Made by a program: the position numbers and the translations under genes. A stretch of 64,000 bases of DNA from Anaerocolumna sp. AGMB13025 (GTDB taxonomy: Bacteria; Bacillota; Clostridia; Lachnospirales; Lachnospiraceae), in the NCBI RefSeq assembly GCF_029689925.1, contig NZ_CP121445.1, positions 2,597,001 through 2,661,000 of the forward strand, given 5' to 3'. Numbering within the stretch: the stretch's first letter is position 1; each line of letters begins with the position of its first letter. Positions 42,461-60,938 of the stretch are shown piece by piece. Under the pieces are notes generated by a model that made no database searches, was not told the DNA's origin, and was given only the letters and a program-made list of their open reading frames with translations.

Positions 42461-43327
42461 ATGAAGATAGCATTTTGGGGCATTGCGAAGGGGAGCAGCG
42501 GTGTGACAAGCAATCTGGCTTGTATCAGTATCGCTTCGGCTATGGAGTATTCCTATAGGTCAATCCTTATAGAAAATCACTACCAGAAAAATAAGCTAAG
42601 TAACATTCTGATGTATCAGAGGTCTCATTATATCGAAAGGGAGGAAAATTATCAGTTTAAGCATATAGGAATGGACTACATAATCAATCAGTTTAACGCC
42701 GGTAAATATGCTAAGGACAATATAATCCAGCCATGGGGAACTGATTCAGACCCATTGGAAGTTATAAAAGAAGCATCGCTTGAAATCCTTGATAATACCT
42801 TATATTATATACCGGTCAGTTATCATATTAACCAAGAAACCTTTGACTATAATTTATACGGGAATATAAAAGACATAATGGATGCGACAGAAGAATTTGC
42901 AGATATCACATATATTGATACATCAAATCAAAATAATCTCAGTTCTAAAATCATTTTAGAAGAAGTCGATTTAGTCGTAGTTAATCTGAAGCAAAATTCA
43001 TCAATAATTCAATATTTCTTTGACAATTATTCGTCAATCCTAGACAAAAGTGTATTCTTAATCAGTAATTATAATAAAAATTCCAGTTTAAATCTAGATA
43101 AAATATCTAAAACCCATTCAATCAGCAAACCCAACATAGCAGTAATACCTTATAACATTGAATATCAGGAGGCGGTATCTCAGGGGACCGTTATTGAATT
43201 TTTGTCGCGCAATTATGACTGCAAGAGGAAAAGTCCAAACTATGATTTTATAAGAGACGTTAAGAAAGCCGCGTCCATGATCATGAAACATGTAACAAAT
43301 ATAAATCCAAAGGAGGAGTGTTCATGA
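42461..43327 (+). CDS. TadZ/CpaE-like ParA-family protein with altered P-loop (1)
   Basis: This 289-residue protein begins MKIAFWGIAKGSSGVTSNLA. The position resembles a deviant Walker A (KGGxGKT), but the GK lysine is replaced (SSGVTSN). The later parts ITYIDTSNQNNL (Walker B-like), VDLVVVNLKQNSS and ISKPNIAVIPYNIEYQEAVS follow the MinD/ParA fold. TadZ/CpaE proteins localise Tad pilus machines at the pole or membrane. GGGGAG sits before the ATG at 42461. The open frame before it lacks a ribosome site. It is the first gene of the Tad-like locus and a paralogue of the gene at 44961. Confidence 0.72.
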   Translation: MKIAFWGIAKGSSGVTSNLACISIASAMEYSYRSILIENHYQKNKLSNILMYQRSHYIEREENYQFKHIGMDYIINQFNAGKYAKDNIIQPWGTDSDPLEVIKEASLEILDNTLYYIPVSYHINQETFDYNLYGNIKDIMDATEEFADITYIDTSNQNNLSSKIILEEVDLVVVNLKQNSSIIQYFFDNYSSILDKSVFLISNYNKNSSLNLDKISKTHSISKPNIAVIPYNIEYQEAVSQGTVIEFLSRNYDCKRKSPNYDFIRDVKKAASMIMKHVTNINPKEECS

Positions 43328-44301
43328 AAAGAAGACTAAAAAGATCCACCAGGCAGCATATTATAGTATCGATCCTATGTGTCATAATCTGTAGTGGAGT
43401 CTTTTTAACAGCATATTTTACAGTAATCAATAATTTAAAAAAGAGTTATGAAAGTGAAATAAGAGTATTATCTAATCAGCTGGAATCCAGCAAGGTATAT
43501 GTATATCAAGCAAAAGAAGATATCACGGCAGGAAGTAAAGTGACGAAGGACATGTTAATACACAGCCAGGTTCTGTCGGAACAGACTCAGGATAACTTTA
43601 TTACGGACAAGGAAATCGGTAAAATTGCTTTAATTGATATGAAAGCCGGGACAGAGGTTTTAAGTACCATGTTAACAGAGGATATTGCAGATACTACAGT
43701 AAGAGAAGCTGAATTTAATTCATTTTTATTAAACAGTAATCTAAAAGAAAATGATTTTGTCGATGTTAGAATTCTATTTCCAAATGGTGAAAATTACATT
43801 GTATTAAGCAAGAAACCTCTAAAGAATCTGACGATGGAAAGAAATAATTGCTTTATGTGGCTTACACCCGAGGAATTATTAAGAGTATCGGGAGCAATTG
43901 TGGATTGCTATCTGAATAAAGGGTCTAAGCTCTATACCGTAAAATATATAGAGCCTCGGATACAGGAAGAGTCTATCGTTACCTATATTCCAAATACGGC
44001 TATCCTAAAACTCATAAAGGAAGACCCTAATGTTGTACAGACGGCTTCAGATCGTTTATATGAAAACCTGCGTATCGAACGAGAGAACCGGCTTTTGGAC
44101 TTTTATAACAATAACAGTGAGGTGTCCTGGGATCAATACAGCTATATAGCCCCCGACTATAACAGGGGAGCAGAAGCGGATAATACCAAGAGTACCAAGT
44201 ACAGCAATATAGAACGTAAAGATAATCAGGGAGGGACGGACGATAGTACAGCAGCTAACGAAGAGGGAGAAAACGAGGAGGATGTCTATTATGTCGATTA
44301 A
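43324..44301 (+). CDS. CpaB/RcpC-like pilus assembly protein (SAF domain)
   Basis: This 325-residue protein has a short basic N-terminus, one membrane anchor (HIIVSILCVIICSGVFLTAY) and a SAF-type domain (VYVYQAKEDITAGSKVTKDM, then LIHSQVLSEQ) followed by an RcpC-like region. CpaB homologues sit at the membrane or periplasmic side of Tad systems. The tail (after about 275) is acidic and disordered (DDSTAANEEGENEEDV). AGGAGG fits the ATG at 43324. The GTG at 43318 is too close. It overlaps the first TadZ-like gene by four bases. Confidence 0.72.
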   Translation: MKRRLKRSTRQHIIVSILCVIICSGVFLTAYFTVINNLKKSYESEIRVLSNQLESSKVYVYQAKEDITAGSKVTKDMLIHSQVLSEQTQDNFITDKEIGKIALIDMKAGTEVLSTMLTEDIADTTVREAEFNSFLLNSNLKENDFVDVRILFPNGENYIVLSKKPLKNLTMERNNCFMWLTPEELLRVSGAIVDCYLNKGSKLYTVKYIEPRIQEESIVTYIPNTAILKLIKEDPNVVQTASDRLYENLRIERENRLLDFYNNNSEVSWDQYSYIAPDYNRGAEADNTKSTKYSNIERKDNQGGTDDSTAANEEGENEEDVYYVD

Positions 44302-44959
44302 TGCAAAGACCATTGGATTTCTTGGAATAGAAGCATATGATCTTATCTTGTTCCTGTCAAAATTACTGCTGAATCTAAACCAAAAAGTGTTATTAATTGA
44401 TAACTCTGATACGGGAGCGCTAACCTGCTGTATTCCGGTTCCGGATTCCCTGAATCCTAAAGTTTCTAAGGTCAGCTATCAAAAGATAGATTTTGTAAAA
44501 GAGAGAGCAAGCTCAGAATATGAGAAGGCATATGACTTCATACTGATTGATTTTGGATTTAAAGTTAATCATAAAGAGATAGGTAACTGTTCCATTCTTT
44601 ATTTGATTACGGATAAACAGCAGCATAACACGTTAAGATTTCATAACCTAAAGTTAATACATGTACTGAAAGAACAAGAGACTTACCTGATCATAAAAGA
44701 TCTCCTAAATAGTGAGAGTGCAGCTTATCTTACAGATAGCCTGAGAGATAAAATTAATAATATCAAACAGTATTTTTACCTGTTTGAAGATGATATTGAC
44801 AGAGAAAATATGGTTTCACTTCAATATAACAATGAAGTAAAGTTCAGGAGACAATCCGGTCAGTATAAGAATCTGCTGATGCAAATACTGACCGAAGCAC
44901 TTCAATTCAATAGAACAGAGGTTATACTGGCCTATAAGAAGGCGAAAAGAGGTGTATAA
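44291..44959 (+). CDS. TadZ/CpaE-like protein without a P-loop (2)
   Basis: This 222-residue protein starts MSINAKTIGFLGIEAYDLIL, where a P-loop would be expected but no Gly-rich Lys motif is found. YDFILIDFGFKVNHKEIGN resembles a Walker B strand, and the overall length and position match a degenerate ParA/MinD fold. It probably binds partners rather than hydrolysing ATP. GAGGAGG fits the ATG at 44291, nine bases inside the open frame, which starts at 44282. It overlaps the cpaB-like gene by 11 bases. Confidence 0.5.
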   Translation: MSINAKTIGFLGIEAYDLILFLSKLLLNLNQKVLLIDNSDTGALTCCIPVPDSLNPKVSKVSYQKIDFVKERASSEYEKAYDFILIDFGFKVNHKEIGNCSILYLITDKQQHNTLRFHNLKLIHVLKEQETYLIIKDLLNSESAAYLTDSLRDKINNIKQYFYLFEDDIDRENMVSLQYNNEVKFRRQSGQYKNLLMQILTEALQFNRTEVILAYKKAKRGV

Positions 44960-44960
44960 T

Positions 44961-45758
44961 TTGAAAATAGCATTTTGGAGTCCGATATCCGGGCAGTCCG
45001 GTACCACCAGTAATATAATTATTACAGCAGCTATGGCTTCCCTTGTAGATAGAAAACGGACGTTACTGCTTCATAACCAGTTCTCAGATAACAGTATGGA
45101 AAGAGCTATACTGGGTAAAGGTACCGGGCAGGAGTTGTTTGAACATATCGGACTGGATTCCTTATCTAGAAATATAAAAACAGCAGAACTGAGCGAGGAG
45201 CTTGTACATAATTCTGTGATATCACTTTATAATAACGGAATACATTTACTCCCAGGAACTGTAAAGGGTCACCGGCAAATGTTTGAAGCAGAACTTTTGG
45301 TTTCCATGCCTGCCATTTTAAATTCCATTAATCAGTATTATGATTTGGTATTTATGGATCTGGTACCGGGGACCAATGAAGTATCCGTAAGAATGATGGA
45401 GGAAGCCGACATAATTGCAGTAAACTTAACCCAGGATATAAATGTAATCAATGATTACTTTGACCGATATCATCTGCCCGAAGAAAAGACCGTCTATTTA
45501 ATCGGTAAATATAATAAAAACTCCCGTTATAACTTAAAAAACCTGATGAGGACCTATCATTGCCTGAAACATAAAACAGCTGTGATTCCTTACAACACCG
45601 AAGTAATGGATGCTGTAATAGATGGTAAATTAATAAATCTCATTATTAAGGATTTAGTAAATGGTAAAGGTGATGATAATCGTTACTTTATTAAAAAGGC
45701 AAAACAGGCGGTTGAAGAAATACTTGGAACTTGGCTGAAGGCAGGTGGTATTATTTGA
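44961..45758 (+). CDS. TadZ/CpaE-like ParA-family protein with altered P-loop (3)
   Basis: This 265-residue paralogue of the gene at 42461 shares the start MKIAFWSPISGQSGTTSNII, then YDLVFMDLVPGTNEVSVR (Walker B region), ADIIAVNLTQDINVINDYF and HKTAVIPYNTEVMDAV. The P-loop lysine is missing here too. TTG at 44961 aligns with the ATG of the paralogue and has AGAGGTG 7 bases before. The frame otherwise opens at a GTG (44952). Its last base pairs overlap the ATPase gene start (TTGA at 45755). Confidence 0.72.
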   Translation: MKIAFWSPISGQSGTTSNIIITAAMASLVDRKRTLLLHNQFSDNSMERAILGKGTGQELFEHIGLDSLSRNIKTAELSEELVHNSVISLYNNGIHLLPGTVKGHRQMFEAELLVSMPAILNSINQYYDLVFMDLVPGTNEVSVRMMEEADIIAVNLTQDINVINDYFDRYHLPEEKTVYLIGKYNKNSRYNLKNLMRTYHCLKHKTAVIPYNTEVMDAVIDGKLINLIIKDLVNGKGDDNRYFIKKAKQAVEEILGTWLKAGGII

Positions 45759-47557
45759 TCTTAAATATTATATTAATTATACTTATATCCTTAGCCTCAC
45801 TCCTCTTTTTATTGTATGTCGGGAAAAAAGGGTATTCCATCAGTGAAGATAACCTTGTGGAACCTTATGGGATTCCTTATCTTGTTCAGGAGGTAAACCT
45901 GACATTTGAGAATATCCTTAATAAAAACCTTGCCGAGTTGAATCTGAACAAACTGGAGACCCAAAAACGGGAGAAGATTAAAAGTCTGATAAGGAAAAAT
46001 CTAAGAAGCTGCAGTCTTGGTGATATTGGAGCAAAAGAATATATCAAAGATTATATTAAGGAAATCCTACAAAAGAATCTTGGTATTAAAGGGGAGACAA
46101 TAGACCTGGTAATTCCATTTAATAATAGCTCACTGCTCTCTAAACAGGATAAATTCGAAATTCTCTTGTATATTTATAAAAAGCAGTATAAATATGATGC
46201 ATTGACCATGCTGATTGAAACCTATCAATTGACGGAGGTTAAAACTGATGGTGAGCATGAGCGGTATGAAATAACAGAACAGGAAGTGGATGAAATTTAT
46301 GATTCGGAAAGCATTTATCTTCATTTCAGTGATAAGCTGGAGGTCGTGACTCAAAGAATTTATCAGTTATACAAAGGTTTCGGTGTAATTGATGAAATCA
46401 GGGACATGAAAATAGACGGAGTATCCGGTGGCATTTCAGGAATACCCTTTGACCTTTATACCTATCAGGCAGAAAGTTTTGAAACAATGGAGCTTAAAAA
46501 TCTGAATGCATATAACAGCGTATGGATTTTCTTTCAGGGAAAAACTACTCATCTGTCGTTTCTGGGGTTTGAATCTCAGAACGAACTGATTCGGGTATGC
46601 AAAAATATCTACCGCTATGGCAATCCCGGACAGCTTAGTGAAGCGAAAGGATTTATCGCCAACGATATGAAGGACGGCTCCAGAGTCGTCACCTTCCGAC
46701 CGCCATTTTCCGACCGTTGGGCATTTTTCGTAAGAAAACATGACAGTATTATTGACATGGATATTCATAACATAATTAAGGAGGAAGGTAATGAGGAGCT
46801 TATTAATGTCTTAAAATGGATGGTAAGAGGATGTCTGGTTATCGTAATCACCGGTGAGATGGGAAGCGGGAAAACTACGTTACTAAAACTTTTAATCCAA
46901 TATATCAGAAGAACCTTTACCCTGCGTGTACATGAGCAGATTTTTGAACTCAATTTAAGCAAAGTATATCAGGACTTTAATATACTGACACTGCGGGAAA
47001 CAGAAACGGTCTCAGGGCAGGAAGCTTTAGATATTATGAAGAAAACCGACGGAACAGTAATAATACTTGGAGAAGTAGCCTCTCATACAGCTGCTAACTG
47101 GCTGGTCGAGACTTCCCAGATATCAAAAATGACATTATGTTCCCATCATGCCCAGACGACAGAGGATCTGATAGATAATCTGAAAATCGCCCAGTTAAGG
47201 GTCGGGGGCTTTCATAATGAATTTCTTGCCGAGGAACAGGTAGTAAAGGCCATTAATATAGATATCCACATGGAAAATATCAATGGACACAGATATATTT
47301 CCCGGATTACTGAAATAGTGCCGATAAACGAGAAGGACTACCCCAGTGATTATATACCTGCTGCCCTTGAATATTTTAAAAGAAAAACGGATAGGAAAGC
47401 TTATAAAACCACTGATATTGTGAGGTTTGAAAAGGGGCAGTACGTTTTGAAAAATCCCTTCAGTGGGCGTGCCAGAGAGCGGATATTAAAGAATCTAAAT
47501 GAAGTAGAAGGGGCGGAATTTACCAGTTTTTTTAACTCTGCTTTTGATGTGGAATAA
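45755..47557 (+). CDS. CpaF/TadA-type secretion ATPase
   Basis: This protein of about 600 residues is a VirB11/CpaF-family motor. Unusually, it has an N-terminal membrane segment (MILNIILIILISLASLLFLL). Walker A GEMGSGKTTLLKLL lies near residue 367, Walker B at TVIILGEV and the His box at LCSHHAQTTEDL. FRPPFSDRWAFFVRKH is the typical N2 region. The TTG at 45755 follows AGGTGG. An upstream TTG at 45731 would lie inside the previous gene without a ribosome site. This is the clearest marker that the locus is a Tad-like machine. Confidence 0.82.
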   Translation: MILNIILIILISLASLLFLLYVGKKGYSISEDNLVEPYGIPYLVQEVNLTFENILNKNLAELNLNKLETQKREKIKSLIRKNLRSCSLGDIGAKEYIKDYIKEILQKNLGIKGETIDLVIPFNNSSLLSKQDKFEILLYIYKKQYKYDALTMLIETYQLTEVKTDGEHERYEITEQEVDEIYDSESIYLHFSDKLEVVTQRIYQLYKGFGVIDEIRDMKIDGVSGGISGIPFDLYTYQAESFETMELKNLNAYNSVWIFFQGKTTHLSFLGFESQNELIRVCKNIYRYGNPGQLSEAKGFIANDMKDGSRVVTFRPPFSDRWAFFVRKHDSIIDMDIHNIIKEEGNEELINVLKWMVRGCLVIVITGEMGSGKTTLLKLLIQYIRRTFTLRVHEQIFELNLSKVYQDFNILTLRETETVSGQEALDIMKKTDGTVIILGEVASHTAANWLVETSQISKMTLCSHHAQTTEDLIDNLKIAQLRVGGFHNEFLAEEQVVKAINIDIHMENINGHRYISRITEIVPINEKDYPSDYIPAALEYFKRKTDRKAYKTTDIVRFEKGQYVLKNPFSGRARERILKNLNEVEGAEFTSFFNSAFDVE

Positions 47558-47599
47558 AAATCTGTTTCGCAGTTACAGATAGCTGGAAAATACAATTGA

Positions 47600-47757
47600 A
47601 ACATATGATTGAAAGATGTATTTAAAAGAGATAATTGAAAATTTATTTAAAAGATATAAATAAAAGATTTATTTGAAAGGTATAGTTAAAAGATATAGTT
47701 GAAGATATAAATAAAAGCTATAGTGAAATGACAAATTAGTAATTGAAAGGTATAAGG
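47600..47757. repeat. Degenerate AT-rich simple repeat
   Basis: Variants of AAAAGATATAGTTG and AAAAGATATAAAT recur about ten times between the ATPase and the next Tad gene. The bases immediately before 47768 contain the AAGGTAGTGG ribosome site. No gene is seen in this 210-base gap. Confidence 0.75.
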
Positions 47758-47767
47758 TAGTGGTAAT

Positions 47768-49783
47768 ATGCGAATAATCCAGTGGTTATTTTTCGGACTA
47801 ATTATTTCGGTTATCGTGTTTTCGTTCCTGTTCTATTGGCTGAAGAAAAAAGTTGAAAGAAAAAATAAGTATTCCATTTTTTTGAACACGAATAAAAAAC
47901 CAGGAAAAGACTATTACAGTGCCTGGTATGAATTTTTCCACGAGTGGAGAGTTACAAAAAGATATATTAAAAAAATTGCCAGACACTTTGAGATATATAT
48001 GCCAGGTGATTACAAAAGAATATCACGCAGCACAATGAAATTGGCATTTCGAACCTGGGGTTTGGATTTCCTGCTAATTATCTTTTTGCTAACTCGCGGA
48101 CCAACCCTTTACTGGGGAGGACTTACTATAGCATTTCTGTTTATTTTAAATAGTCAAGTTATTTATTTCACAGTTGAAGCAAATGAGATAAAATTATTAA
48201 AGCAATTTGATAAATTACTTGGAGATATCAGGCACAACTATCAAGCCCACGGCATGACACTTGAGGCTATCTATGATTCTGTCGAAACAGCACCTTACCC
48301 GGTTAAACTGCATGCTGTTAAAATACATACCGTATTAAGTTCCGAAGAAGTTAGTGAAGAAGTCAGTAACTATAATGAGACTGTACCGAATCGGTTTATG
48401 AAAGTATTTTTGTCTTTGTGTGTGATGATGTTACAGTTCGGTGACAAAAAAGTTGATAACCAATCCCTGTTTTTACTTAATATTAAGTACCTAAAACAGG
48501 AGGTATTTACGGAAATCTTAAAGAGAGAGAAGATGAAGCACCTATTTTCCGGGCTGATTTTTGTATGCCTGACACCTGTTTTATTCTTAAAAGCTATAGA
48601 GAGCTGGGCAGTCTTGAGTTTACCGGAAATGCAAAGTTATTATAGCGGTGCCTTTGGCATTGTGACTATGATATTCATATTTATATCCACATTGACATCT
48701 TACAATCTGATTAATTGTATGAAAGAAAACAGACAGGCAGAACTCGGTAATTATTTTATACTGGAATATATTCTAAGATTTCCGTTTGTTAATGAGTTAT
48801 TATCCAATATTGTTAATAAAAATTACGGAAAAACGTTAAAATTGCAAGATTTAATAAGAAAAACCGGTGAACCCATAACACCAAAACAATTTATCTTAAA
48901 AAGATCAATCTACAGCTTTGTTACATTTATTTGCTGTATCTTAGTTTCCATCACAATTCATCATAATAACAAAATTCAAATCCTAACCAATTATAACATT
49001 ATGAATTATCTGAATTCCTCTATATCAGAGAAGCAGATAGAAAGTATGAAAGGCATCATTAAAAAATACGTAATTCAATATAAGAAACGAAAACCGATTC
49101 CTAGGGACATAGAAGAAAAACTGTTGGAAGAGGGAATTATAAAAAGCAAGCAACTGATGACAATGAGTCACAAAGAAATAATCAGTAGAATTAATGCTTA
49201 CCAGATGGAGTATTACCATTGGTATGAACTGGTCATAGCATTACTTATGGGGGCAGCAGCTTTTTATGTACCCTATCTGAATTTGTTGTTATTAAAAAAA
49301 TTAAGACAGATGGATATGGAAGATGAAGTAATACAGTTTCATTCTATTATACTTATGCTGATGCATTTTGACCGGATGACAATTGAAACAATGTTAAGCT
49401 GGTTTGAAAACTTTGCGGTAATATTTAAAAAATCCATACAGGAATGTATTAACGAATTGCAGACCGGTGATATTGAGGTCCTTGAAGCGTTAAAACGGAA
49501 AGAACCGTATGAACCTTTCGTTAAAATTATAGAAAACCTGCAAATCAGTGACAAAATCGGTATTAGTAAAGCCTTTGATGAAATAGCCGTGGAACGGAAC
49601 CACTACCAGGAGAAGCGGAAATTAGAAAATGAAATCGAGATAGGTGATAAAGCTTTAATTGCTAAGGTGATAGCATTTATACCATTTACTATAACGATTG
49701 GTTTTTATCTGATTATACCATTTATAGTGGAGGGCTTAACCCAATATGCAGGATATATGCAGCAGATTAAGGATATATATTGA
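47768..49783 (+). CDS. TadB/TadC-like membrane platform protein, fused size
   Basis: This 671-residue protein has a membrane segment at 3-22, a pair at about 95-130, a pair near 250-315, one near 380-400, one near 480-500 and a final one at about 635-660. Two halves carry T2SF-like cytoplasmic helices (LLKQFDKLLGDIRHNYQAHG in the first, VIQFHSIILMLMHFDRMTIE in the second). Tad systems normally encode TadB and TadC separately at about 300 residues each. This one is about the size of both together. It would form the inner-membrane platform for the ATPase. Confidence 0.68.
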   Translation: MRIIQWLFFGLIISVIVFSFLFYWLKKKVERKNKYSIFLNTNKKPGKDYYSAWYEFFHEWRVTKRYIKKIARHFEIYMPGDYKRISRSTMKLAFRTWGLDFLLIIFLLTRGPTLYWGGLTIAFLFILNSQVIYFTVEANEIKLLKQFDKLLGDIRHNYQAHGMTLEAIYDSVETAPYPVKLHAVKIHTVLSSEEVSEEVSNYNETVPNRFMKVFLSLCVMMLQFGDKKVDNQSLFLLNIKYLKQEVFTEILKREKMKHLFSGLIFVCLTPVLFLKAIESWAVLSLPEMQSYYSGAFGIVTMIFIFISTLTSYNLINCMKENRQAELGNYFILEYILRFPFVNELLSNIVNKNYGKTLKLQDLIRKTGEPITPKQFILKRSIYSFVTFICCILVSITIHHNNKIQILTNYNIMNYLNSSISEKQIESMKGIIKKYVIQYKKRKPIPRDIEEKLLEEGIIKSKQLMTMSHKEIISRINAYQMEYYHWYELVIALLMGAAAFYVPYLNLLLLKKLRQMDMEDEVIQFHSIILMLMHFDRMTIETMLSWFENFAVIFKKSIQECINELQTGDIEVLEALKRKEPYEPFVKIIENLQISDKIGISKAFDEIAVERNHYQEKRKLENEIEIGDKALIAKVIAFIPFTITIGFYLIIPFIVEGLTQYAGYMQQIKDIY

Positions 49784-49911
49784 AAAATTTTAAGAGTAGT
49801 GGATATTGGAAAGTGTGTTTATGGGTGAAAGCTCCATTGAGGGGAGGATAGCAAAGCGAGAAAGTTGTTAAATTGATAATATCAAAAGTAAATAATCTAA
49901 GTAAAATATTA

Positions 49912-50135
49912 ATCAAAAATATAAGTCATAAAATATAAGTCATAAAATATAAGTCATAAAATATAAGTCATAAAATATAAGTCATAAAATATAAGTAAAA
50001 AATATAAGTCAAAATATAAGACAAAAATATAAGACAAAAATATAAGACAAAAATATTAGTCAAAATATAAGTCAAAAATATAAGTCAAAAATATAAGTCA
50101 TAAAATGTAAGTCATAAAATATAAGTCAAAAAAAT
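49912..50135. repeat. Simple-sequence tract, 13- and 14-bp units
   Basis: AAAATATAAGTCAT is repeated about six times, then AAAATATAAGACA variants, then the first unit again, up to about 50135. It fills most of the 370-base gap between the platform gene and the pilin-like gene. AAAGGAG for the next gene follows directly. Confidence 0.9.
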
Positions 50136-50151
50136 AAAGGAGAACAATAAA

Positions 50152-50601
50152 ATGGATAATTCATTAAAAGGATTAATATTAGCAGCCGGAGTTATAATCA
50201 CTTGTTTAGTAGTAGGGATTGGATTTTATATCAGCAGGGAAGCGAGTGCAGCTGCAACGAATGGAACCGGGCAAATCAGCCGTATGAATAAGGAAGTAGC
50301 TGAATCAGACAAGGTAATGTATGACGGGCTGGATGTTACCGGAAGTGAAGTAATCAATGCCATCAATAAATACAAAAGCGAAGATATAGCTGTGAAAGTT
50401 ACCACTAAGAAATCCAGTGTCTACTATAATCGAATTCTAATCAATAGTGATAAGGAATTGGGCAATGAAAGTAATGCATCGGTTAAGGATACCCAGACTA
50501 TAACCAGTAGTTATTACATAAATCAAAAGGCACAGTTTACCGGTGAGATATTACGTGATGTAAACGACACCATAATTGGCATTTCATTTGTACAGCAATA
50601 G
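50152..50601 (+). CDS. Pilin-like small protein of the Tad locus
   Basis: This 149-residue protein has a short N-terminus and one hydrophobic segment (LKGLILAAGVIITCLVVGIG, about 5-24), then a polar domain rich in Ser, Asn and Lys. The shape matches a pilin or pseudopilin, but the Flp-type processing site (Gly before Glu at +5) is not obvious. AAAGGAG precedes the ATG. Position after the ATPase and platform genes supports a fibre or minor subunit role. I cannot assign a known family. Confidence 0.5.
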   Translation: MDNSLKGLILAAGVIITCLVVGIGFYISREASAAATNGTGQISRMNKEVAESDKVMYDGLDVTGSEVINAINKYKSEDIAVKVTTKKSSVYYNRILINSDKELGNESNASVKDTQTITSSYYINQKAQFTGEILRDVNDTIIGISFVQQ

Positions 50602-50670
50602 AGGTTGGAGAAAATTTAAGAATAACTGGGATGATACAGTACAATTCTTTCAACTTAAAAATTTAAAGCA

Positions 50671-50712
50671 GTATCACAAGTGAACTTGTGATATGTAATG
50701 GGTATAATCATG
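50671..50712 (+). repeat. Dispersed palindromic repeat, copy C
   Basis: GTATCACAAGTGAACTTGTG followed by ATATGTAATGGGTATAATC matches copy A at 21426-21483 and, like it, ends at a gene start codon. Confidence 0.6.
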
Positions 50713-51090
50713 CAGAATGGTTTAAAATTTCTAGAAATGGCAGCTTATATATTTATTTTTTGTACTGCTGTAACACTCCTATTATTTTATAACAGATCAT
50801 TAAATAAACTTATTACAACTACAAAAAATGATGTTACCAGCCAGAATAATTATTATGAAAGTGAGCAATCTTTAGCAGAGATTCAACCAGGTAAAATTTC
50901 TTATGCTGAAATGATTACATTACTTATTGGTGATTTGGATTATGATATTCAGATTAATGACATGACGATATTGAAGGAGGGTTATAACTACCAGGAGTTT
51001 GATTTTTCTTTGGTTCCTCTGGCAGACTATACAAAAACATATCAGTATGATTCCTTCGGAAATATTATAAAAGTGATATACAAAAGTTAA
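50710..51090 (+). CDS. Small single-anchor protein of the Tad locus
   Basis: This protein of about 126 residues has one N-terminal hydrophobic segment (MAAYIFIFCTAVTLLLFY) and a polar domain ending YQYDSFGNIIKVIYKS. The shape again fits a pseudopilin. The start is uncertain. ATGs at 50698 and 50710 are both possible, and the preceding bases belong to the dispersed repeat (copy C) rather than to a clear AGGAGG. Family not recognised. Confidence 0.45.
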   Translation: MQNGLKFLEMAAYIFIFCTAVTLLLFYNRSLNKLITTTKNDVTSQNNYYESEQSLAEIQPGKISYAEMITLLIGDLDYDIQINDMTILKEGYNYQEFDFSLVPLADYTKTYQYDSFGNIIKVIYKS

Positions 51091-51142
51091 TAGATCGGAT
51101 TCTAATAAACAAATAGAGTCCTGATTACAGAAAGGATAACGA

Positions 51143-54100
51143 ATGAATAAAAAGGGTTTAAATAAAGCTTTATCATTCATTATGGTTCTTGCATTGGTAT
51201 TACCAGCATTACCAGCCAGAACAATAAAAGCAGCGGAAAATCCTGTTATTAACCCAACAGAGGATGTTTCAACGGTAACTCCATCAGCAATTTCCATGAT
51301 GGCCACTGTATCTGAAAATACTTCATTGAGTATTTCGGATGGCCCAATTACGATAACCAATCAAAGTTATGTTCAAACGAATTCATCCGGGACTGTTATA
51401 AATTCTGGAGATATTACCGGTGAACTTGTTTTGACTGGTGTACAGGCCAACAATTGGCCAATTACATTAAGTGGTTCCAATATACCAACTATACATTACA
51501 AAAATGTGGTGACAAATGGAAATATTAAAGGTACAGCGTCAGGAACCTTAAATATTATCCTGGAAGGAAATTGCACATTTAGTAATTCCATAACTTATAG
51601 CCTGACTAATATTTCTACAGTTAATTTAACCGGTGTTGAAGGAAATTTATGCAAAACCACTGGTGTACTATACGGTGATTCTACGAGTGTACCTAATCTG
51701 TTTATTACTGGGATTAAAGTTGATTCAAATTCCGGTGTTAATGCATTAATACAAGCTTATCGGAATATTTCAGTTACGGATTGTACTTATGTAGGCGCGG
51801 GTAGTATTTTGATTCAAAATATCGGAAATATAGGTAATTCTTATACTGCTACAGTAAAAGACTGTATATTTAACAGTGCAGCGTTCTATTTTGGCTCTAA
51901 TACTTTGATTGAAAATGTAAAGATCTTAAACCAGGCATCAACAGCTCAGATAAATATATCCTATGCACCGTATAGCAACATTACGATAAAAGATAGTGTT
52001 TTGTACCAAGGTTATACAGGTTTAGGCGGCAGTACAGTAAAGATTATAAATTCCTTTCTGTCAACCGGAAGTTACTACGTAGATGCAACTTATATAACCG
52101 GTTCCTTTTACATCGAAGGATCCACTATTGTAAGCAAAACGACATCAACTGGCATTGCCGGTATTACAATGTCGAAAAACAATGCTGTATTTGTAACGGA
52201 CAGCAGTATACTTGTTTCCCCGCCATTCGATCAGGATTATGGGTTTTACAATTCGATATCAAAGACAATGATCGATCCCTATGATACCCAGGGAAATGTA
52301 CTTTACCTTAATATGGTTAAGGTACCTGGTGCAAGTAATGCCATGGTTACTGTCTCTATTGATGATAGACCGGAAGTTACGCTAGGAACCGACAGTAACG
52401 GGTATTTGTTTTTATATCTACCAACCGGACAGCATAACGTTTATGTAACAGATATCAATAATAATCATTACACGAAAACTTTTACGTCCACAACAGCAAG
52501 ACCTACAACTTCAACATCAAATGTAATCGGAGAATTGGACCCAGCAAAGGCACCTACCGATATCATTACTCCTTATTTCAATACTTCAATACAATATTCT
52601 TTCAATTATAGTAATTGGAGTAATGCAACAACAGATGGGACAGGTATTTTTAAAGCAGTAATTCCGGATAATGCAACCCGAATTTATATAAAAGTATCCG
52701 GTGAAATCAAACATGCAATTATATCGGATGGGGTAGTTGGAACGTTCTATGCGGATAAACCAATCATCACAGAACAAAGTAATTCGGATATTACTTTCCT
52801 AAAAGGAATGCAGGGAACCGTTTATGTTAATTCGGTACCATATACAATTGGGGATACCTTAACCTATCAGTGGTATAAGGACGGAGAACTTCTTTCTGGT
52901 AAAACTTCGCCGGTCTTAAATTTATCCGTAACCAATGTTTCGGATGCCGGTACCTATACCTGTATTATTAAAGAGTCAGACGGTAGAACCATAACATCAA
53001 GCCCAATCACAGTAGTCATTCATGAGGGACAGCCGGAAGAAGAGGGTCAATTAACCATTGTATCACAATCTTCAGATAAGACATTGATAAAAGGATATTC
53101 CATGGAATTATACGTAAATGCAAAACCTTCTTTAAGTAGTAAGGAACTTACTTATCAGTGGTACAAAGATGGTGCAAAGGTGCCAGATGCGGTCAGTAGC
53201 AAACTGAATATAGGTACAGTAGTGCTGGTGGATTCCGGGACTTATGTATGCCGGGTATATGAGGATAGTAATTATCTAGATTCCGACCCCATTATAGTTA
53301 CTGTAAAAGATAATCCATTAGAAGGAGATGTAACAGATCTTACAAACCAGGTAGTGGAATTGACCTCACTGGTAGGAACACTACAGGGTCAACTGGTAAC
53401 TGCCAATCAGGAAAAAGCAACATTAGAGAATAGAATTAACGAACTGGATGGTCAGATTGAAAATTATATAAATCAGATTAGCGAGTTGCAGAGTGATACA
53501 ACAGAATTACAACAGCAATTGCAGGATGCTAACGGAGATAAGGAAAGTCTGAATCAAATGATTACCGATCTGAATAACCAGATAAATGGGTTAAATGATC
53601 AGATTCATTCTTTGCAGATGAACCTCGAAGCTGTTAATACAGAGAAAGAAACACTGGAACAAACAGTGTCAGGATTACAAACTGACATTACTAATTTAAG
53701 CGGACAGATAACCTTGCTACAAGGATTGCTCTCCGACAGTGAAGCAGCTAATACCGAACTAACCAATCAGGTAACGGAATTATTAAGCACCATAGCAGGA
53801 TTAGAAAACCAGGTTACTGACTTACAGAACGGTTTTAATGCCCTATCAGTACAGAATGGGCAACTGATATCACAGGTTGAGTCATTAACGGAGCAAAAAT
53901 CCGAATTAGATGATGATATACAAAGGCTTCTAGGACTTCTGGATGATGCCTATGGTACAATAGATAACTTGACCGGGCAGGTAGCTAATCTGACAGCCCG
54001 GGTAAATACATTAACAGAGCAGTTAGCAAATGCCAATCAGGGCAAAGATACATTACAAGAAACCATTGATGGTCTGGAAAGTGAAATAACCAACTTGAAT

Positions 54101-56329
54101 ATCCAGATTACAACCTTACAGACCCGTGCTTTAGAATTAGAGGAGGCCTTGGAACAAGCAGGAGCAGAAAAAGATACTCTTAAACAAACTATCACTGGGT
54201 TAAATACACATATTACAAATTTAAATGAAACGGTAACGTCCTTTCAGAACCAGATCAATGTAGTAACCGCAGAACGGGATGCCCTTTTGAATACAGTCAC
54301 TGGATTAAATACACAGATCGTATCTTTAAATAGCCAAATCACGATTATTTCAGGCAAATTAGAGGACAGTGAAGAAAAAAATATGGAGTTAATAAACCAA
54401 GTGACAGAGCTTCATGGAACCATATCAGAATTGGAAAGTAATATCACCGGTCTGCAAAGTGAACTGGATTCGATACAGGACAGCAATATCAAGTTACAGG
54501 GACAGCTAAATACAGCCAATCAGACGATTAATTCTTTAAATGCCTTATTAGCTTTAATCAAAGGTGAATTAGGGATAGTTAATGACGATGATATTATTCC
54601 TGCCATTAAGCAATTAAAAGAACAATTGCAGCATGAAAAAGTGAATAATTCATTCCTACAGGAACAATTGGATGAATTAAACACAGAGCTTGCCACAGCC
54701 AGGGAAAGTAATATCACACTGACAGAAAAGATACAAGAATTAATAAATCTAGTTGACTCAGAGGATTTTGATGGACTCAAAAGCAAAATAATTGAATTGC
54801 AGACTTCCTTGACAGAATCGGTAACCAGAATCCATGAACTGGAATTAGAAAAGAGTACTCTGCTTAAAAACCTGGAAGAGGCAGAACAGTTAAACCAAAC
54901 CTTACAGCAGAAACTTGATGAATTATTGAAATTATCCGACTCCGATGTGCTGGAGTTAAAACAGCAGATTTTAGCTTTAACCAGTCAAATGAATCAATTA
55001 ATCCAAAAGAATCAAGACCTGCAGACGTCCATATCAGACTTAACAATCAGGATTAATGATCTAAATACGGAAAAAGCAAAATATGAAAGTGAAATTGTAA
55101 GACTGGAAACCCTATTAAATACTGCTAACAGTACCATAGAAGAGTTAAGACTAAAACTTGCGAATCTGGCAGCAGATAAAATCCTTCTGGAAAATGAAAA
55201 CGAAGCTTTAAAGGAAAAAATCCAACAAATAATAAAGCAGCTTGAAAACAGTAATCATTCCAGTGGAGGGAACTCCGGAAGTAGCAATAATACAGCGGAA
55301 GTAAAGGATTTGAAGGATAAACTGGATCAAGCTGTAAAGAATCTAGAAACCACAAAACAGGAATTAGAGAAGTTAAAAGAAACAACCGGCAAAACAGACG
55401 GCAAAACAGACGGCAAATCAGACGGAAATACAGATGGTAAAACAGATAATAAAGATATAAAGCTTCCAGAAAATTCGATTGTGATTATGCCTGCAAAAAC
55501 AGTAGCGGAACCGGTCATTAAACAGGAAACGAATAAACCAATCAAGGATGATAAAATCGTTGCTGAAGATGGATGGGAGATTGCGCCAACATTAGATTCT
55601 GATTGGACAAAAGAAATCAGTCTAATCGATACTATTGGTCAGACAAACAAACCGGAAAAGACAAACTATAAATTCTATGCCAGGGAAGAAGAGAAGCCGG
55701 AACAAATTTATACTCAGCTAGTTACAGTAGAAAGACCGGAAGCCATTCCTAACTTTACCATGGACAAGTTAATCTATCTTGGATCGGAGTTTAATTTAAA
55801 TGTTGCAAATATTTCAAAGGATGCCAAGATAACTTATAAAAGTGCTGACAATAGTGTAGCTAAAATAAATAAGGAGGGTAAAATTACTCCGGTGAAAGAA
55901 GGTAAAACCCAAATTACCGGAACAGTTACTAAAGCTGGTATCCCTTATCGATTTACGGTTAAAGTTACTGTAAAGTCTGACGGGAACAAGACTCTTAATT
56001 TAAAAGATCAGGCAATACAGACGGCTTCCAATACCCCTGTACTTTTGGTATATAAATTAGTCAATAAAGACAAAACAACTAAAATTAATCTAAATGGGTA
56101 TGCAAAGAATGCCACTGTCTCTTATATCAGTTCTGATAGTACGATAGCGACAGTAGATAAGGCAGGAATTATTAAAGGTATCAAAAAAGGAACTACAACA
56201 ATCACAGCTACCCTCGCTCAGAACAATACCATGTATACATACATTATTAAGGTAAGAGTAGATGATGGAACTAACGACGAAACCAAGTGGAATTATCTGA
56301 CAGACAGCAGCGAAATAGTTAACAGGTAG
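51143..56329 (+). CDS. Giant secreted protein: beta-helix, Ig-like, coiled coil and BIG2-like domains
   Basis: This 1728-residue protein has an N-terminal signal peptide ending near AENP (about residue 33). Residues about 60-450 have beta-strand repeats with many Asn/Thr/Ser turns (NVTDCTYVGAGSILIQ-like rungs), typical of a parallel beta-helix. Two Ig-like domains with YQWYKDG and DSGTYVC/DAGTYTC cover about 539-722. A heptad-rich coiled coil rich in Leu, Gln, Asn and Glu runs from about 725 to 1370. A short KTDGKTDGKSDG repeat follows near 1416, then two BIG2-like domains at about 1530-1705. No LPXTG or membrane anchor is seen. An adhesin or stalk displayed by the Tad-like machine is plausible. 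Confidence 0.72.
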   Translation: MNKKGLNKALSFIMVLALVLPALPARTIKAAENPVINPTEDVSTVTPSAISMMATVSENTSLSISDGPITITNQSYVQTNSSGTVINSGDITGELVLTGVQANNWPITLSGSNIPTIHYKNVVTNGNIKGTASGTLNIILEGNCTFSNSITYSLTNISTVNLTGVEGNLCKTTGVLYGDSTSVPNLFITGIKVDSNSGVNALIQAYRNISVTDCTYVGAGSILIQNIGNIGNSYTATVKDCIFNSAAFYFGSNTLIENVKILNQASTAQINISYAPYSNITIKDSVLYQGYTGLGGSTVKIINSFLSTGSYYVDATYITGSFYIEGSTIVSKTTSTGIAGITMSKNNAVFVTDSSILVSPPFDQDYGFYNSISKTMIDPYDTQGNVLYLNMVKVPGASNAMVTVSIDDRPEVTLGTDSNGYLFLYLPTGQHNVYVTDINNNHYTKTFTSTTARPTTSTSNVIGELDPAKAPTDIITPYFNTSIQYSFNYSNWSNATTDGTGIFKAVIPDNATRIYIKVSGEIKHAIISDGVVGTFYADKPIITEQSNSDITFLKGMQGTVYVNSVPYTIGDTLTYQWYKDGELLSGKTSPVLNLSVTNVSDAGTYTCIIKESDGRTITSSPITVVIHEGQPEEEGQLTIVSQSSDKTLIKGYSMELYVNAKPSLSSKELTYQWYKDGAKVPDAVSSKLNIGTVVLVDSGTYVCRVYEDSNYLDSDPIIVTVKDNPLEGDVTDLTNQVVELTSLVGTLQGQLVTANQEKATLENRINELDGQIENYINQISELQSDTTELQQQLQDANGDKESLNQMITDLNNQINGLNDQIHSLQMNLEAVNTEKETLEQTVSGLQTDITNLSGQITLLQGLLSDSEAANTELTNQVTELLSTIAGLENQVTDLQNGFNALSVQNGQLISQVESLTEQKSELDDDIQRLLGLLDDAYGTIDNLTGQVANLTARVNTLTEQLANANQGKDTLQETIDGLESEITNLNIQITTLQTRALELEEALEQAGAEKDTLKQTITGLNTHITNLNETVTSFQNQINVVTAERDALLNTVTGLNTQIVSLNSQITIISGKLEDSEEKNMELINQVTELHGTISELESNITGLQSELDSIQDSNIKLQGQLNTANQTINSLNALLALIKGELGIVNDDDIIPAIKQLKEQLQHEKVNNSFLQEQLDELNTELATARESNITLTEKIQELINLVDSEDFDGLKSKIIELQTSLTESVTRIHELELEKSTLLKNLEEAEQLNQTLQQKLDELLKLSDSDVLELKQQILALTSQMNQLIQKNQDLQTSISDLTIRINDLNTEKAKYESEIVRLETLLNTANSTIEELRLKLANLAADKILLENENEALKEKIQQIIKQLENSNHSSGGNSGSSNNTAEVKDLKDKLDQAVKNLETTKQELEKLKETTGKTDGKTDGKSDGNTDGKTDNKDIKLPENSIVIMPAKTVAEPVIKQETNKPIKDDKIVAEDGWEIAPTLDSDWTKEISLIDTIGQTNKPEKTNYKFYAREEEKPEQIYTQLVTVERPEAIPNFTMDKLIYLGSEFNLNVANISKDAKITYKSADNSVAKINKEGKITPVKEGKTQITGTVTKAGIPYRFTVKVTVKSDGNKTLNLKDQAIQTASNTPVLLVYKLVNKDKTTKINLNGYAKNATVSYISSDSTIATVDKAGIIKGIKKGTTTITATLAQNNTMYTYIIKVRVDDGTNDETKWNYLTDSSEIVNR

Positions 56330-56334
56330 CAGTG

Positions 56335-56455
56335 AGTAGTTAATAGCTAGTAGTAGGTAATAAATAGTTAGTAGTTAATAGTTAGTAGTTAATAGTTAGT
56401 AGTTAGTAGCTAGTAGCTAGTTGTTAATAAATAGTTATTAATTAATAATTATTAG
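56335..56455. repeat. Simple-sequence tract (AGTTAGTAGTTAAT-type)
   Basis: Short units such as GTAGTTAATAGTTA and AGTAGCTAGTAG repeat many times after the giant gene. A long hairpin follows directly, the same order as at 29199-29551. Confidence 0.8.
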
Positions 56456-56504
56456 TAAATATCTATTAGTTAATATAGTTACTGAGCGTAATATGGATGT
56501 AGAA

Positions 56505-56638
56505 CCCGGGTTGAGAATAAGGATTATGTTTTGCATAATTTGATTCAAGTCTGTGTTATTAAGCAGCTGTTATTTCTGGCTTGTGCCATAAATACTTTAA
56601 TAAGATTTATGTAAAAACATAATCCTTTTCATACCCAG
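56505..56638. repeat. Long hairpin related to the palindrome at 29409
   Basis: ACCCGGGTTGAGAATAAGGA and TTATGTTTT on the left pair imperfectly with AAAACATAATCC and TTTTCATACCCAGAT on the right. AGAATAAGGATTAT is shared with the 29409-29551 element, and the tail AATTTAGCAGTAACTCC resembles its GGATTAGCAACAGCCCC. It may end the transcript of the giant gene. Confidence 0.7.
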
Positions 56639-56688
56639 ATAATATATCCTCTGAATTTAGCAGTAACTCCTACGAAAGAAGGAAATCA

Positions 56689-57204
56689 ATGAATGCATTC
56701 AGCAAAATAGTAGCTTTCTTACTTGCAGCAATCATTCTTTTTCTGGGACCGCTTTTATATATAGCACAGAAACAGGATGCTATTAGTCAGGTATATGTTT
56801 CAGATGAAACGACAAAGTTTGTAAATAGCATAAAAAATACCGGGTTTTTAACTTCCGTTATGTATATGGATTACATCAAAAAGATTGACCAGACTAATAA
56901 TTTATACAAGATTGAAATCATACACAGCCATAAAGTGGTGGAACCTCTGTATGACGAAGATACAGGAACATTTTTAAATGACTATAATATTTACTATACC
57001 AATACGTATCAGGACGAGGTTTTAAACACCTTCGACCTGGGAGAGGACTATCAATTTTCACGGGGGGATTACCTATCTGTTACGGTAGTAAATCGAAGCA
57101 AAACTCTTGCCACAAAATTAATGGAATTATTTTATCGGGCCGATATCCCGGATGAGCAGATCCTGGTAACTTACGGAGGTATGATTCGGGATGAAATTAA
57201 CTAA
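56689..57204 (+). CDS. Pseudopilin-like protein of the Tad locus
   Basis: This 171-residue protein has one N-terminal hydrophobic segment (IVAFLLAAIILFLGPLLYIA, about 7-26) and an extracytoplasmic domain with many beta-branched residues. The topology is like TadE/F or other minor subunits of Tad systems. GAAAGAAGGAAATCA precedes the ATG. It overlaps the next gene by 14 bases, implying a coupled pair. Family not assigned. Confidence 0.5.
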   Translation: MNAFSKIVAFLLAAIILFLGPLLYIAQKQDAISQVYVSDETTKFVNSIKNTGFLTSVMYMDYIKKIDQTNNLYKIEIIHSHKVVEPLYDEDTGTFLNDYNIYYTNTYQDEVLNTFDLGEDYQFSRGDYLSVTVVNRSKTLATKLMELFYRADIPDEQILVTYGGMIRDEIN

Positions 57205-58144
57205 TTTAGCCATATTGTTTTTTATTATAGAACTTACTTTAATTACGATAATGGACCTCCGGACGAATAACTTAACGGCAGTGAACAATAAAAAGATAGA
57301 ATATGAGAAAGCCTTAGATAGTGCGATCGAAGATGGGGTTGTTGATTTAGTAGAAGTCGATAGTAAAAGAAAACTGGTTCTGAACAAAGAAACAGCAGTA
57401 AATCAATATTACGAATCCTTATTTGCTAATTTTGGTGTGATTGGGAATGAACAGGGGGAGAACAGATTAAAAGGTTATATACCCCTCATTCTGGTTACCG
57501 ATACAGATGGGTTTTACATAAATTATTCAGATACCTATGAAACCAATGGAGAGGTTTTAATTGGACAGAAATGGACGGAAAAAATGCCCTATGCCTATCA
57601 GGATAAAAGCTTAATATATAAATTTACCCTTGGGACCTACCTGACAATTTATGATACTTCTGCAAAGGTAATATATGAAGGAGAATATAGGGATTTAAAA
57701 CCCCAACTTCCGGATTCCTTACTGGCTAATCAGGAAACATTTGATACAATCCGGAGAAACGCTATTATTGGGGCTATTGAAAAATGTATGAATTATTATA
57801 TCAACCAGCATAACCGCATTGCAGAACAATTCGGTATTACATATCAGTTTTGGCTGCCCCGGATTGACAAAACTGACTGGTACCGGACAATCGATGATAT
57901 CAGTATGCTGGTTATTTTTCAAGGATATCCCTATCAAGCAGCAGGGAGGGAAACTTATAACCGGTATTCCCTGGCTGGTGCCAGAATTACAAAATCAAGA
58001 ATTTACTATATCACTGAGGGTAATGGAATCAAGAATTACCACCGGGGAGACTGCCAACCTGTCAACACTTCGGGATTAGCATATTACACCAAGGAAGAAT
58101 GTACTTTGGAAGGAGCATATCCGTGTCCGGAATGTAGGCCTTAG
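57191..58144 (+). CDS. Membrane-anchored protein with a C-terminal Cys/His motif
   Basis: This 317-residue protein has an N-terminal anchor (LAILFFIIELTLITIMD, about 5-21), a large extracytoplasmic domain and a C-terminal module reading NYHRGDCQPVN followed by GAYPCPECRP. The H-x3-C then C-x2-C layout resembles small metal-binding tails found on some secreted nuclease-like and surface proteins of clostridia. It ends the plus-strand Tad-like locus, and its stop almost touches the stop of the convergent gene at 58146. A tip or anchoring protein of the Tad machine is possible. No family recognised. Confidence 0.48.
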   Translation: MKLTNLAILFFIIELTLITIMDLRTNNLTAVNNKKIEYEKALDSAIEDGVVDLVEVDSKRKLVLNKETAVNQYYESLFANFGVIGNEQGENRLKGYIPLILVTDTDGFYINYSDTYETNGEVLIGQKWTEKMPYAYQDKSLIYKFTLGTYLTIYDTSAKVIYEGEYRDLKPQLPDSLLANQETFDTIRRNAIIGAIEKCMNYYINQHNRIAEQFGITYQFWLPRIDKTDWYRTIDDISMLVIFQGYPYQAAGRETYNRYSLAGARITKSRIYYITEGNGIKNYHRGDCQPVNTSGLAYYTKEECTLEGAYPCPECRP

Positions 58145-58145
58145 A

Positions 58146-59111
58146 TTAATCCTGCTCCGTTATTGCCAAGTACTTTTTCAGTTCTTTATTCCAGGACACA
58201 TATAACTTTTCCTTACGGTGGTCTGATAAATTTGTGTGCTCAGATAAATATGTCCCCATATAGTCTGTCACCTTTTTAGCTCCATAAAAATTCAGATGAT
58301 TTCCTTTGTCGCGGGTATCCTTAGACCAATCTATGCCTAACTGTTGATTGTTCAAATTCAAGTCTACATAAGGTAATTGGTTCTTTTCTGCAAATGCTGC
58401 TGCCGCATTATGTTTTTCATAAGTCCAGCACAAAGGTGATGGCGCACTATAAAGAATCAGCTGAATATTCTTTGTCTTACATAAATCTGCAATTTTGTTT
58501 AAATACAACAAGGGCATATCATCAATCCTTTTAGTTTTGCTTGTAGGATTAATATAAGGTCCTTTCGTATAAGGCTTAATAATTATATTATAATGAAAGC
58601 CTTTCAATACATTTGGCTTGGCATTTTTCGATTTATGTTCTAAATTTTGCAACATACTGAAATTAAAGTATTTCCAGCTGTTATGATATTTATAGACAGG
58701 AAAAATTACTTTCGTGGCTTCGTCAACAACATCTTGAAGTGCATTTGTATATTCAAAATTCCGGTAAAAAGCGTTGGTTTCGAGTAAAATTACCTGAGGT
58801 GATTGCTTTTTAAGTAATCTCTTAAGCAGATAATAAGTGTCCTGCAGCCGCTGACCCGGAACGCCGCAGTTATATCCGGCATAACCTTGATTTTTCCAAA
58901 TTTCCATAGGAGAAATACTGGTACTGCCTTCACTGTCACCGAGTATAATATAATCGATTGTGTTTTCAGGTGCACTTAAGATGCCTTTCATTTTTTTGTA
59001 AAAACCTTCTTCCATGCTATTGGAAGGCAGCATTAAATAGGATAGGATATATAATAATAAGAACAATCCGGTTGTAAATAAAAAAGGTTTTATTAAGTTT
59101 TTTGATCGCAT
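58146..59111 (-). CDS. SGNH-like, DltD/AlgX-type membrane-anchored protein
   Basis: This 321-residue protein has one N-terminal anchor (FLFTTGLFLLLYILSYLML) and an outward SGNH-hydrolase-like domain: IILGDSEGSTSISPM (block I with the candidate Ser) and a late DKGNHLNFYGAKKV with the Asp/His. This is the topology of DltD and of SGNH partners of MBOAT acyltransferases (AlgX, PatB), which complete transfer of an acyl group on the outer face of the membrane. It is the last gene of the five-gene minus-strand cassette, 10 bases after the MBOAT gene. Confidence 0.7.
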   Translation of the reverse strand: MRSKNLIKPFLFTTGLFLLLYILSYLMLPSNSMEEGFYKKMKGILSAPENTIDYIILGDSEGSTSISPMEIWKNQGYAGYNCGVPGQRLQDTYYLLKRLLKKQSPQVILLETNAFYRNFEYTNALQDVVDEATKVIFPVYKYHNSWKYFNFSMLQNLEHKSKNAKPNVLKGFHYNIIIKPYTKGPYINPTSKTKRIDDMPLLYLNKIADLCKTKNIQLILYSAPSPLCWTYEKHNAAAAFAEKNQLPYVDLNLNNQQLGIDWSKDTRDKGNHLNFYGAKKVTDYMGTYLSEHTNLSDHRKEKLYVSWNKELKKYLAITEQD

Positions 59112-59121
59112 AGTCTACCTC

Positions 59122-60705: not shown

Positions 60706-60707
60706 CT

Positions 60708-60938
60708 TTAAGCTTCCTCTTGCAGGCGTGTTATCATAGACCAAATTGCAGCAGCAGAATTAAAATTGACCGGAACTAAATCAACAGGTGTGATTTCAAT
60801 TCCGAAAGTGTCTTCAAGTTCAGGGATGAGAGTAAGAATCGAAAAGGAATCGAAAAGTCCATTATCGATTAGTTTGGTTTCCGTTTCATAATTAATATTG
60901 GGGTTAATATCTTCTAAAATAGTGATCAATTTTTCCAT
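60708..60938 (-). CDS. DltC-like acyl carrier protein
   Basis: This 76-residue carrier protein has KLIDNGLFDSFSILTLIPEL with the Ser that carries 4'-phosphopantetheine and the GIEITPVDL helix region. Length and charge fit DltC and other discrete aminoacyl carriers. The open frame extends to 61055, but that part overlaps the upstream PLP enzyme gene. The ATG at 60938 follows AAAGGA by 10 bases. It would be loaded by the DltA-like enzyme and, possibly, modified by the PLP enzyme. Confidence 0.8.
   Translation of the reverse strand: MEKLITILEDINPNINYETETKLIDNGLFDSFSILTLIPELEDTFGIEITPVDLVPVNFNSAAAIWSMITRLQEEA

Follow-up and report, generated by a model that had tools for sequence, protein, structure and literature searches.

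A cluster of eleven open reading frames (ORFs) of Anaerocolumna sp. AGMB13025 probably specifies the machine for a type IV filament, Tad-derived but of a subtype of its own. The cluster lies at 42461-58144 of the window, the whole stretch of 64,000 nucleotides that was analysed (G000:C1:2597001-2661000; host genome 6.82 Mb, single contig). A distinct Tad-related machine had been proposed in the initial annotation, and this part of the proposal was supported: a canonical Tad locus is present separately in the genome, the motor ATPases form a clade apart, the platform is one protein, and at least two TadZ-like proteins are encoded just upstream of the motor in 82 of 104 loci (one in 18, none in four). 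In reviews, Tad is defined by a very small pilin with the Flp motif and by two platform paralogues (PMC6916266, PMC6668835), the latter derived from an ancient fission (PMC6668835). Neither feature was found here, and the locus was therefore filed as a Tad-related variant and not as a Tad pilus.

Gene order and core components

The eleven ORFs are all read from the plus strand, as in the one-directional arrangement first described, in the order TadZ-like, CpaB, TadZ-like, TadZ-like, CpaF-type ATPase, platform, P1, P2, giant, M1 and M2. Several genes overlap head to tail (e.g. 43327/43324, 44301/44291, and 45758/45755) and several start codons are ambiguous, most of all that of the ATPase (TTG at 45731 or 45755). 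A promoter and terminator scan gave signal no better than shuffles.

42461..43327, plus strand: TadZ-like protein 1, paralogue of the third TadZ-like product
43324..44301 (start could be 43318), plus strand: CpaB/RcpC-like SAF protein with N-terminal membrane helix, 325 aa
44291..44959, plus strand: TadZ-like protein 2, named from its place in the gene order
44961..45758, plus strand: TadZ-like protein 3 (Z), 265 aa, weak AAA_31 match
45755..47557 (or from 45731), plus strand: CpaF-type ATPase, 600-608 aa, with N-terminal membrane helix and long N-terminal extension
47768..49783, plus strand: single platform protein, 671 aa, TadB-like N-half and possible TadC-like C-half
50152..50601, plus strand: P1, pilin-like, candidate major subunit, 149 aa
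50698..51090, plus strand: P2, second pilin-like protein, 130 aa, profile-level homologue of P1
51143..56329, plus strand: giant secreted protein, 1728 aa, two Ig_3, coiled coil, two Big_2, accessory
56689..57204, plus strand: M1, anchored, candidate minor subunit, 171 aa
57191..58144, plus strand: M2, anchored, candidate minor subunit, 317 aa, Cys/His C-terminal tail

Among the ten smaller products, no Pfam or NCBIfam match to a secretin, a prepilin peptidase or an Flp pilin was found, in agreement with the absences read from the sequence at the outset. Operons in other genomes were mapped by simple ORF calling combined with iterated profiles; 104 loci were scored, many of them cut by contig ends, and L069, L081, and L100 were dropped as repeats of other loci. 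The gene order recurs in distant genera, so the window arrangement is not a product of chance.

The window ATPase matches T2SSE above the family cut-off (E 8.3e-8). When a profile of 28 ATPases was compared with solved structures, it matched CpaF (1e-25), FlaI (4.6e-13), PilT (9.7e-10), and VirB11 (2.5e-9), placing a CpaF/TadA-type motor, one of the Tad hallmarks, in this family. An unrooted FastTree phylogeny was built from 107 divergent ATPases, 3 element-borne CpaF, and 16 canonical TadA, 14 of the 30 canonical loci having yielded no ORF under the filter. The divergent ATPases were separated from the canonical TadA and element CpaF with local support of 1.0 on 372 core columns common to all groups and 0.786 on 528 columns. 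Judged by these profiles and trees, the motor is closest to CpaF yet a clade of its own. The membrane helix of the ATPase tracks the CpaB gene across the 104 loci (both in 76, neither in 18, CpaB only in 6, helix only in 4).

Where Tad has separate TadB and TadC, a single protein of at least 500 aa was found in 97 of the 104 loci (shorter or cut in six, unseen in one). To assign its parts, 101 platform proteins were cut into two segments, residues 100-345 and 470-671 in window numbering, and compared by hhalign. The N-half gave E 1.2e-9 against canonical TadB (206 columns), 0.22 against TadC, and 0.056-0.27 against five unrelated control families, and its TadB-like character is firm. The C-half matched TadC at 0.027 over 156 columns, TadB at 0.039, and the controls at 0.091-0.35, which merely suggests a TadC-like half. 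The two halves matched one another (E 0.0011), and the whole platform gave 0.0019 and 0.0095 against a mixed TadB and TadC profile.

Among the proteins encoded ahead of the motor, AAA_31 is matched by TadZ-like product 3 alone, and weakly (0.0027), while products 1 and 3 are paralogous (26% identity, E 1e-36). The Walker-A lysine is mostly gone from the Z family, 107 of 129 members being without GK[T/S] in the first 40 residues, and a TadZ-like profile returned no TadZ among solved structures. The window CpaB-like protein gave sub-cut-off matches only (TIGR03177, E 3.3e-4; SAF, 0.21), and the hallmark CpaB/RcpC with SAF is thus seen through orthologues: a Paenibacillus protein matches SAF above the cut-off (E 5.5e-11), and four plasmid-borne orthologues carry the SAF annotation.

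P1 is encoded directly after the platform gene and is often multicopy across loci. Its N-terminus is near-invariant, with consensus MENSLKGLILAAGTIITC in 19 sequences, and its predicted structure (mean pLDDT 83.3) consists of a 54-residue N-terminal helix (2-55) followed by a beta-containing domain. Among 97 loci with P1 no more than two genes from the platform, the hydrophobic stretch is preceded by Lys-Ala in 56, Lys-Gly in 24, and neither in 17. Seventeen loci could not be scored at position +5 and none of the remaining 80 has Glu there, so that this protein of 149 aa does not represent the small Flp-motif pilin. A fold search with P1 gave no solved pilin and no informative match among the matches listed. 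P2 is homologous to P1 (profile E 4.3e-29) and is shortened to 51-57 aa in several Lachnospiraceae loci.

M1 and M2, recognised in 84 and 80 of the 104 loci, resemble P1 and P2 in being small proteins with one N-terminal hydrophobic helix each. The C-terminal part of M2 matched a TadE-like set at E 4.5e-4 with a probability of 33, that set being picked by pattern and holding at least one wrong member (L006_09), and M1 matched another set at E 0.0052. Both are anchored proteins whose links to TadE-type proteins are, by these comparisons, weak or none. In L043 (10917-13955) an M1 homologue has grown to 1012 aa by a large Cys/His-rich insert with repeated HTHT...C motifs.

A machine-bearing genome lacking an A24 prepilin peptidase was sought as a probe of P1 processing. 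The peptidase exceeded the cut-off, in trans, in 59 of 60 such genomes, which may need it for other pili, and the exception (G246) has a sub-cut-off match; G464 was left out of the count. With the peptidase in 59 of 60 genomes, nothing follows on P1 processing.

An alternative is a standard Tad (T4c) pilus whose only peculiarity is sequence drift. CpaF, CpaB/SAF, TadZ-like, and TadB-like parts in Tad-like order speak for it, but the Tad-defining features that failed, namely the divided platform and the Flp motif with Glu at +5, had already weakened it. It is further opposed by the coexistence of canonical Tad in the window genome and by canonical TadA in 58 of 60 family genomes sampled, and we regard it as quite unlikely.

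A T2SSE search of the window genome returned five places, the present locus among them. The canonical Tad locus lies at 58.8 kb, near flagellin. It encodes TadA (404 aa), TadB and TadC as separate proteins, and two peptidase-like products, the first of them CpaA-like; two of the three A24 peptidase matches in the genome are genes of this locus. An element-type CpaF cluster is found at 2,175 kb and a sub-cut-off match at 415 kb. The remaining place, at 2,045 kb, holds a second, paralogous version of the present locus, its ATPase 35% and its platform 19% identical. Its CpaB-, M1-, and M2-like genes match the window copies weakly, two further position-matched gene pairs gave no BLASTP similarity, and its Z protein was placed in the Z family by profile search. 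This paralogous copy (L008 5344-18359, G000:C1 about 2041-2054 kb) has five small anchored genes that are P1-like or so placed by position and a secreted protein of 442-448 aa between M1 and M2, and similar loci occur in G099 (L040) and G870 (L218).

Distribution across Bacillota and plasmids

The initial annotation had suggested a machine of the Lachnospiraceae. This restriction was rejected by the named, phylum, and plasmid collections, the machine being also present in Paenibacillaceae, Bacillaceae, other Clostridia, and on large plasmids. A two-ATPase profile matched 30 of 200 family genomes at E 1e-20 (weakly and partially in G015 and G188). The 28-sequence profile matched 110 of 295 order genomes with split scores: among the matches listed, 30 genomes score at least 270 bits, G212, G230, and G242 about 200, and those at or below 121 bits, at positions of about 230-530, were taken as canonical TadA. 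Six of 398 genomes in the phylum sample passed E 1e-45, comprising the window genome, four of family f56 (>700 bits), and one partial match of 161 bits. The named collection held at least 287 confirmed relatives, of which 80 were kept, in Anaerocolumna, Paenibacillus, Cohnella, Tumebacillus, Saccharibacillus, Alkaliphilus, Thermoclostridium, and many Clostridia assemblies.

In the plasmid collection, the ATPase was found in 24 records, in 23 over at least 80% of the query, with hosts in Paenibacillus (10), Lysinibacillus (7), Butyrivibrio (2), and five further genera (one each). Operon order is the same on the four plasmids viewed, those of Alkalihalophilus pseudofirmus OF4, L. sphaericus, Paenibacillus polymyxa M1, and Cohnella herbarum, and synteny of the operon spans Clostridia and Bacilli. 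On these plasmids, seven of the nine core genes have no annotation beyond hypothetical protein, and each locus ends with a DUF5704 gene; ahead of it stands a gene of the SLH, stalk-domain or copper-amine-oxidase-N kind. In L119, L129, and L150 (Paenibacillus and Cohnella), ParA/ParB-type genes precede the operon, and near-identical gene lengths in L114, L116, L119, and L126, from different species, suggest a mobile cassette.

Surface partners of the machine

A secreted protein of about 1,000-1,280 aa, encoded beside M2 in Paenibacillus and several Lachnospiraceae, was identified as DUF5704 (PF18964; E 1.5e-77 and 4.7e-55). DUF5704 was found in 26 of the 200 family genomes, 25 of them among the 30 with the ATPase; G014 has DUF5704 alone, and G015, G096, G115, G188, and G199 have the ATPase alone. 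All 15 order genomes with DUF5704 (of 295) are within the 30 full-scoring ATPase genomes. Joining the samples, which have three genomes in common, 37 of 38 DUF5704 genomes carry the ATPase. Overlaps of 3.9 (family) and 1.5 (order) were expected by chance (Fisher p 8e-26 and 2.6e-17, uncorrected for kinship).

Only 8 of the 25 family genomes have the two genes on one contig and no more than about 12 kb apart, a count in which draft contigs blur linkage, and the tie therefore mostly holds without close linkage. In the window genome, DUF5704 is about 1 Mb from the locus (C1:1592405), preceded by a gene for a 415-aa protein with a marginal SLH match (22.6 bits, cut-off 20.8). Since 15 of the 30 order genomes with the machine have no DUF5704, these distributions suggest that DUF5704 depends on the machine and not the reverse. 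In the DUF5704 protein of L217 (8392-11664), residues 360-443, within its most conserved part, are modelled as an unusually long, hydrophilic, nearly ungapped beta-hairpin. At two of the four plasmid loci (L147 22927-23931 and L149 22885-23994), the gene after DUF5704 is of the GGDEF (diguanylate cyclase) type.

The giant protein is a less faithful partner than DUF5704. It was scanned with Pfam alone; among the best 25 of 49 families considered, it has Ig_3 in two stretches and Big_2 in two stretches, together with an N-terminal hydrophobic segment and a long coiled coil. Among 15 genus genomes, the ATPase was matched in all (partially in G875, G878, and G880) and the giant in six, three times in the present operon and three times in a conjugative element. 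In G000, G024, and G872 the giant lies between P2 and M1, which are adjacent with no giant between them in five other genus loci (L209, L210, L211, L213, and L215). A search of the 200 family genomes with its N-terminal part found it only in the window genome and G024. Gene order near the slot is variable in other places too, a secreted protein of 435-442 aa occurring between M1 and M2 in L008, L040, and L218.

In G870, G871, and G881, the giant relatives (L205 6821-11470, L206 6495-12029, and L207 6795-12245) lie between a coupling-protein gene, with small genes intervening, and TrbL_4. This cluster resembles the present locus in having Tad-type genes beside a giant homologue; it differs in having its own prepilin peptidase (A24), RcpC, two platform-sized genes, relaxase, coupling protein, and TrbL_4, with a ParA-like gene, T2SSE ATPase, and DUF4320 also seen by Pfam on L206. 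All eleven query genes of the cluster were matched in L207 and seven in L205, where the stretch ends in the ATPase gene. All six giant copies thus sit in clusters with Tad-type genes, and since the conjugative element has its own CpaF, CpaB, and peptidase, a link between the giant and Tad-type machinery is plausible. The initial proposal of a machine for the giant holds in part, as the giant is in the operon in three of the six genus genomes bearing it and near Tad-type genes in the others, but it is absent from 9 of 15 genomes that all have the ATPase. As a core client of the machine it was rejected, being missing from these nine and positive in only two of 200 family genomes; by this distribution it is an accessory and not a core component.

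The recurrence of large secreted proteins beside the machine raises a dedicated secretion machine, with a type II-like pseudopilus, that would export DUF5704 or the giant and form no surface filament. The near restriction of DUF5704 to machine-bearing genomes (37 of 38), together with 20 genome entries over the two samples that have the machine but no DUF5704, is the pattern of a dependent client. However, both DUF5704 and the giant have N-terminal hydrophobic signal-like segments, a monoderm needs no second export step, and DUF5704 is missing from 15 of the 30 machine-bearing order genomes; we consider secretion unlikely.

A mating or DNA-transfer appendage, begun on or serving mobile elements, would account for the 24 plasmid records, for the gene of the replication-relaxation family present in two of the four stretches viewed, and for the giant relatives adjoining relaxase and coupling-protein genes in three genomes. 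Yet all 24 plasmids were typed non-mobilizable by MOB-suite and the window locus is chromosomal, flanked by metabolic genes; we regard this as very unlikely, the least probable of the alternatives.

Proposed mechanism and relation to known systems

As a Tad-derived filament, the machine would work as follows. The TadZ-like pseudo-P-loop proteins and CpaB would position the motor and platform, ATP hydrolysis would drive the platform, and P1 would be pulled from the membrane and stacked into a filament in which P2, M1, and M2 would serve as minor or tip components. Such a filament would cross the wall without a secretin. Sec-exported surface proteins could then dock on it: across most lineages DUF5704 with a companion of the SLH or a comparable type, and in some members of the genus the giant Ig/coiled-coil protein. 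The role would likely be adhesion or cell-cell contact. A broader proposal, which we advance tentatively and with well under even confidence, is that monoderm Bacillota possess type IV filaments of a separate class. These would have a Tad-derived motor, a re-fused TadB-TadC platform, a membrane-anchored CpaF, a pilin without need of a G-1/E+5 peptidase site, a dependent surface module of DUF5704 and SLH or similar tied to the machine even when unlinked, and optional lineage-specific giant adhesins.

Likeness to the Tad/Flp (type IVc) pilus is seen in the CpaF-type ATPase, CpaB/SAF, TadZ-like proteins, and the TadB-like platform half, and in the lack of a secretin, as in monoderm Tad (PMC6916266, accessible part). 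The differences are one platform in place of two, a pilin-like subunit of about 149 aa in place of an Flp-motif pilin, two or three TadZ-like proteins, the ATPase membrane helix, no peptidase in the locus, and the DUF5704/SLH partners. Archaeal type IV pili (Epd and others) share an undivided platform and a P-loop companion protein, and their pilin N-terminus is without E5. The motor profile, in contrast, fits FlaI far less than CpaF. Furthermore, the platform N-half is TadB-like here, whereas the archaeal platform N-terminal domain aligns best with TadC in the available text of Denise et al. (PMC6668835). The same text reports many new Tad systems in Bacilli and Clostridia, a count that could already include some of the present loci.

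In Paenibacillus sp. NAIST15-1, according to the accessible part of one report (PMC5072692), two putative pilus loci were deleted with motility unaffected; neither a pilin nor an inner-membrane core gene was identified in them by the authors. CmoA, the collective-motility protein of that strain, was set aside as a candidate, having vWFA and IPT/TIG domains and lying beside flagellar genes (same part). A literature search, with subscription papers and preprints outside its scope, found no paper naming DUF5704 and none whose entry describes the operon.

If the filament reading is true, Clostridia and Bacilli possess a widespread surface organelle, encoded on large plasmids as well, that has so far been overlooked, and DUF5704, of function unknown so far, gains a testable role. 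One platform with a TadB-like N-half would also qualify the rule of two platform genes by fission for Tad (PMC6668835, available text). The operon is present in organisms with genetics. Immediately 3' of the locus, at 58146-60938 on the minus strand, are genes for a 321-aa anchored protein, an MBOAT acyltransferase (PF03062), and a 76-aa protein of acyl-carrier size.

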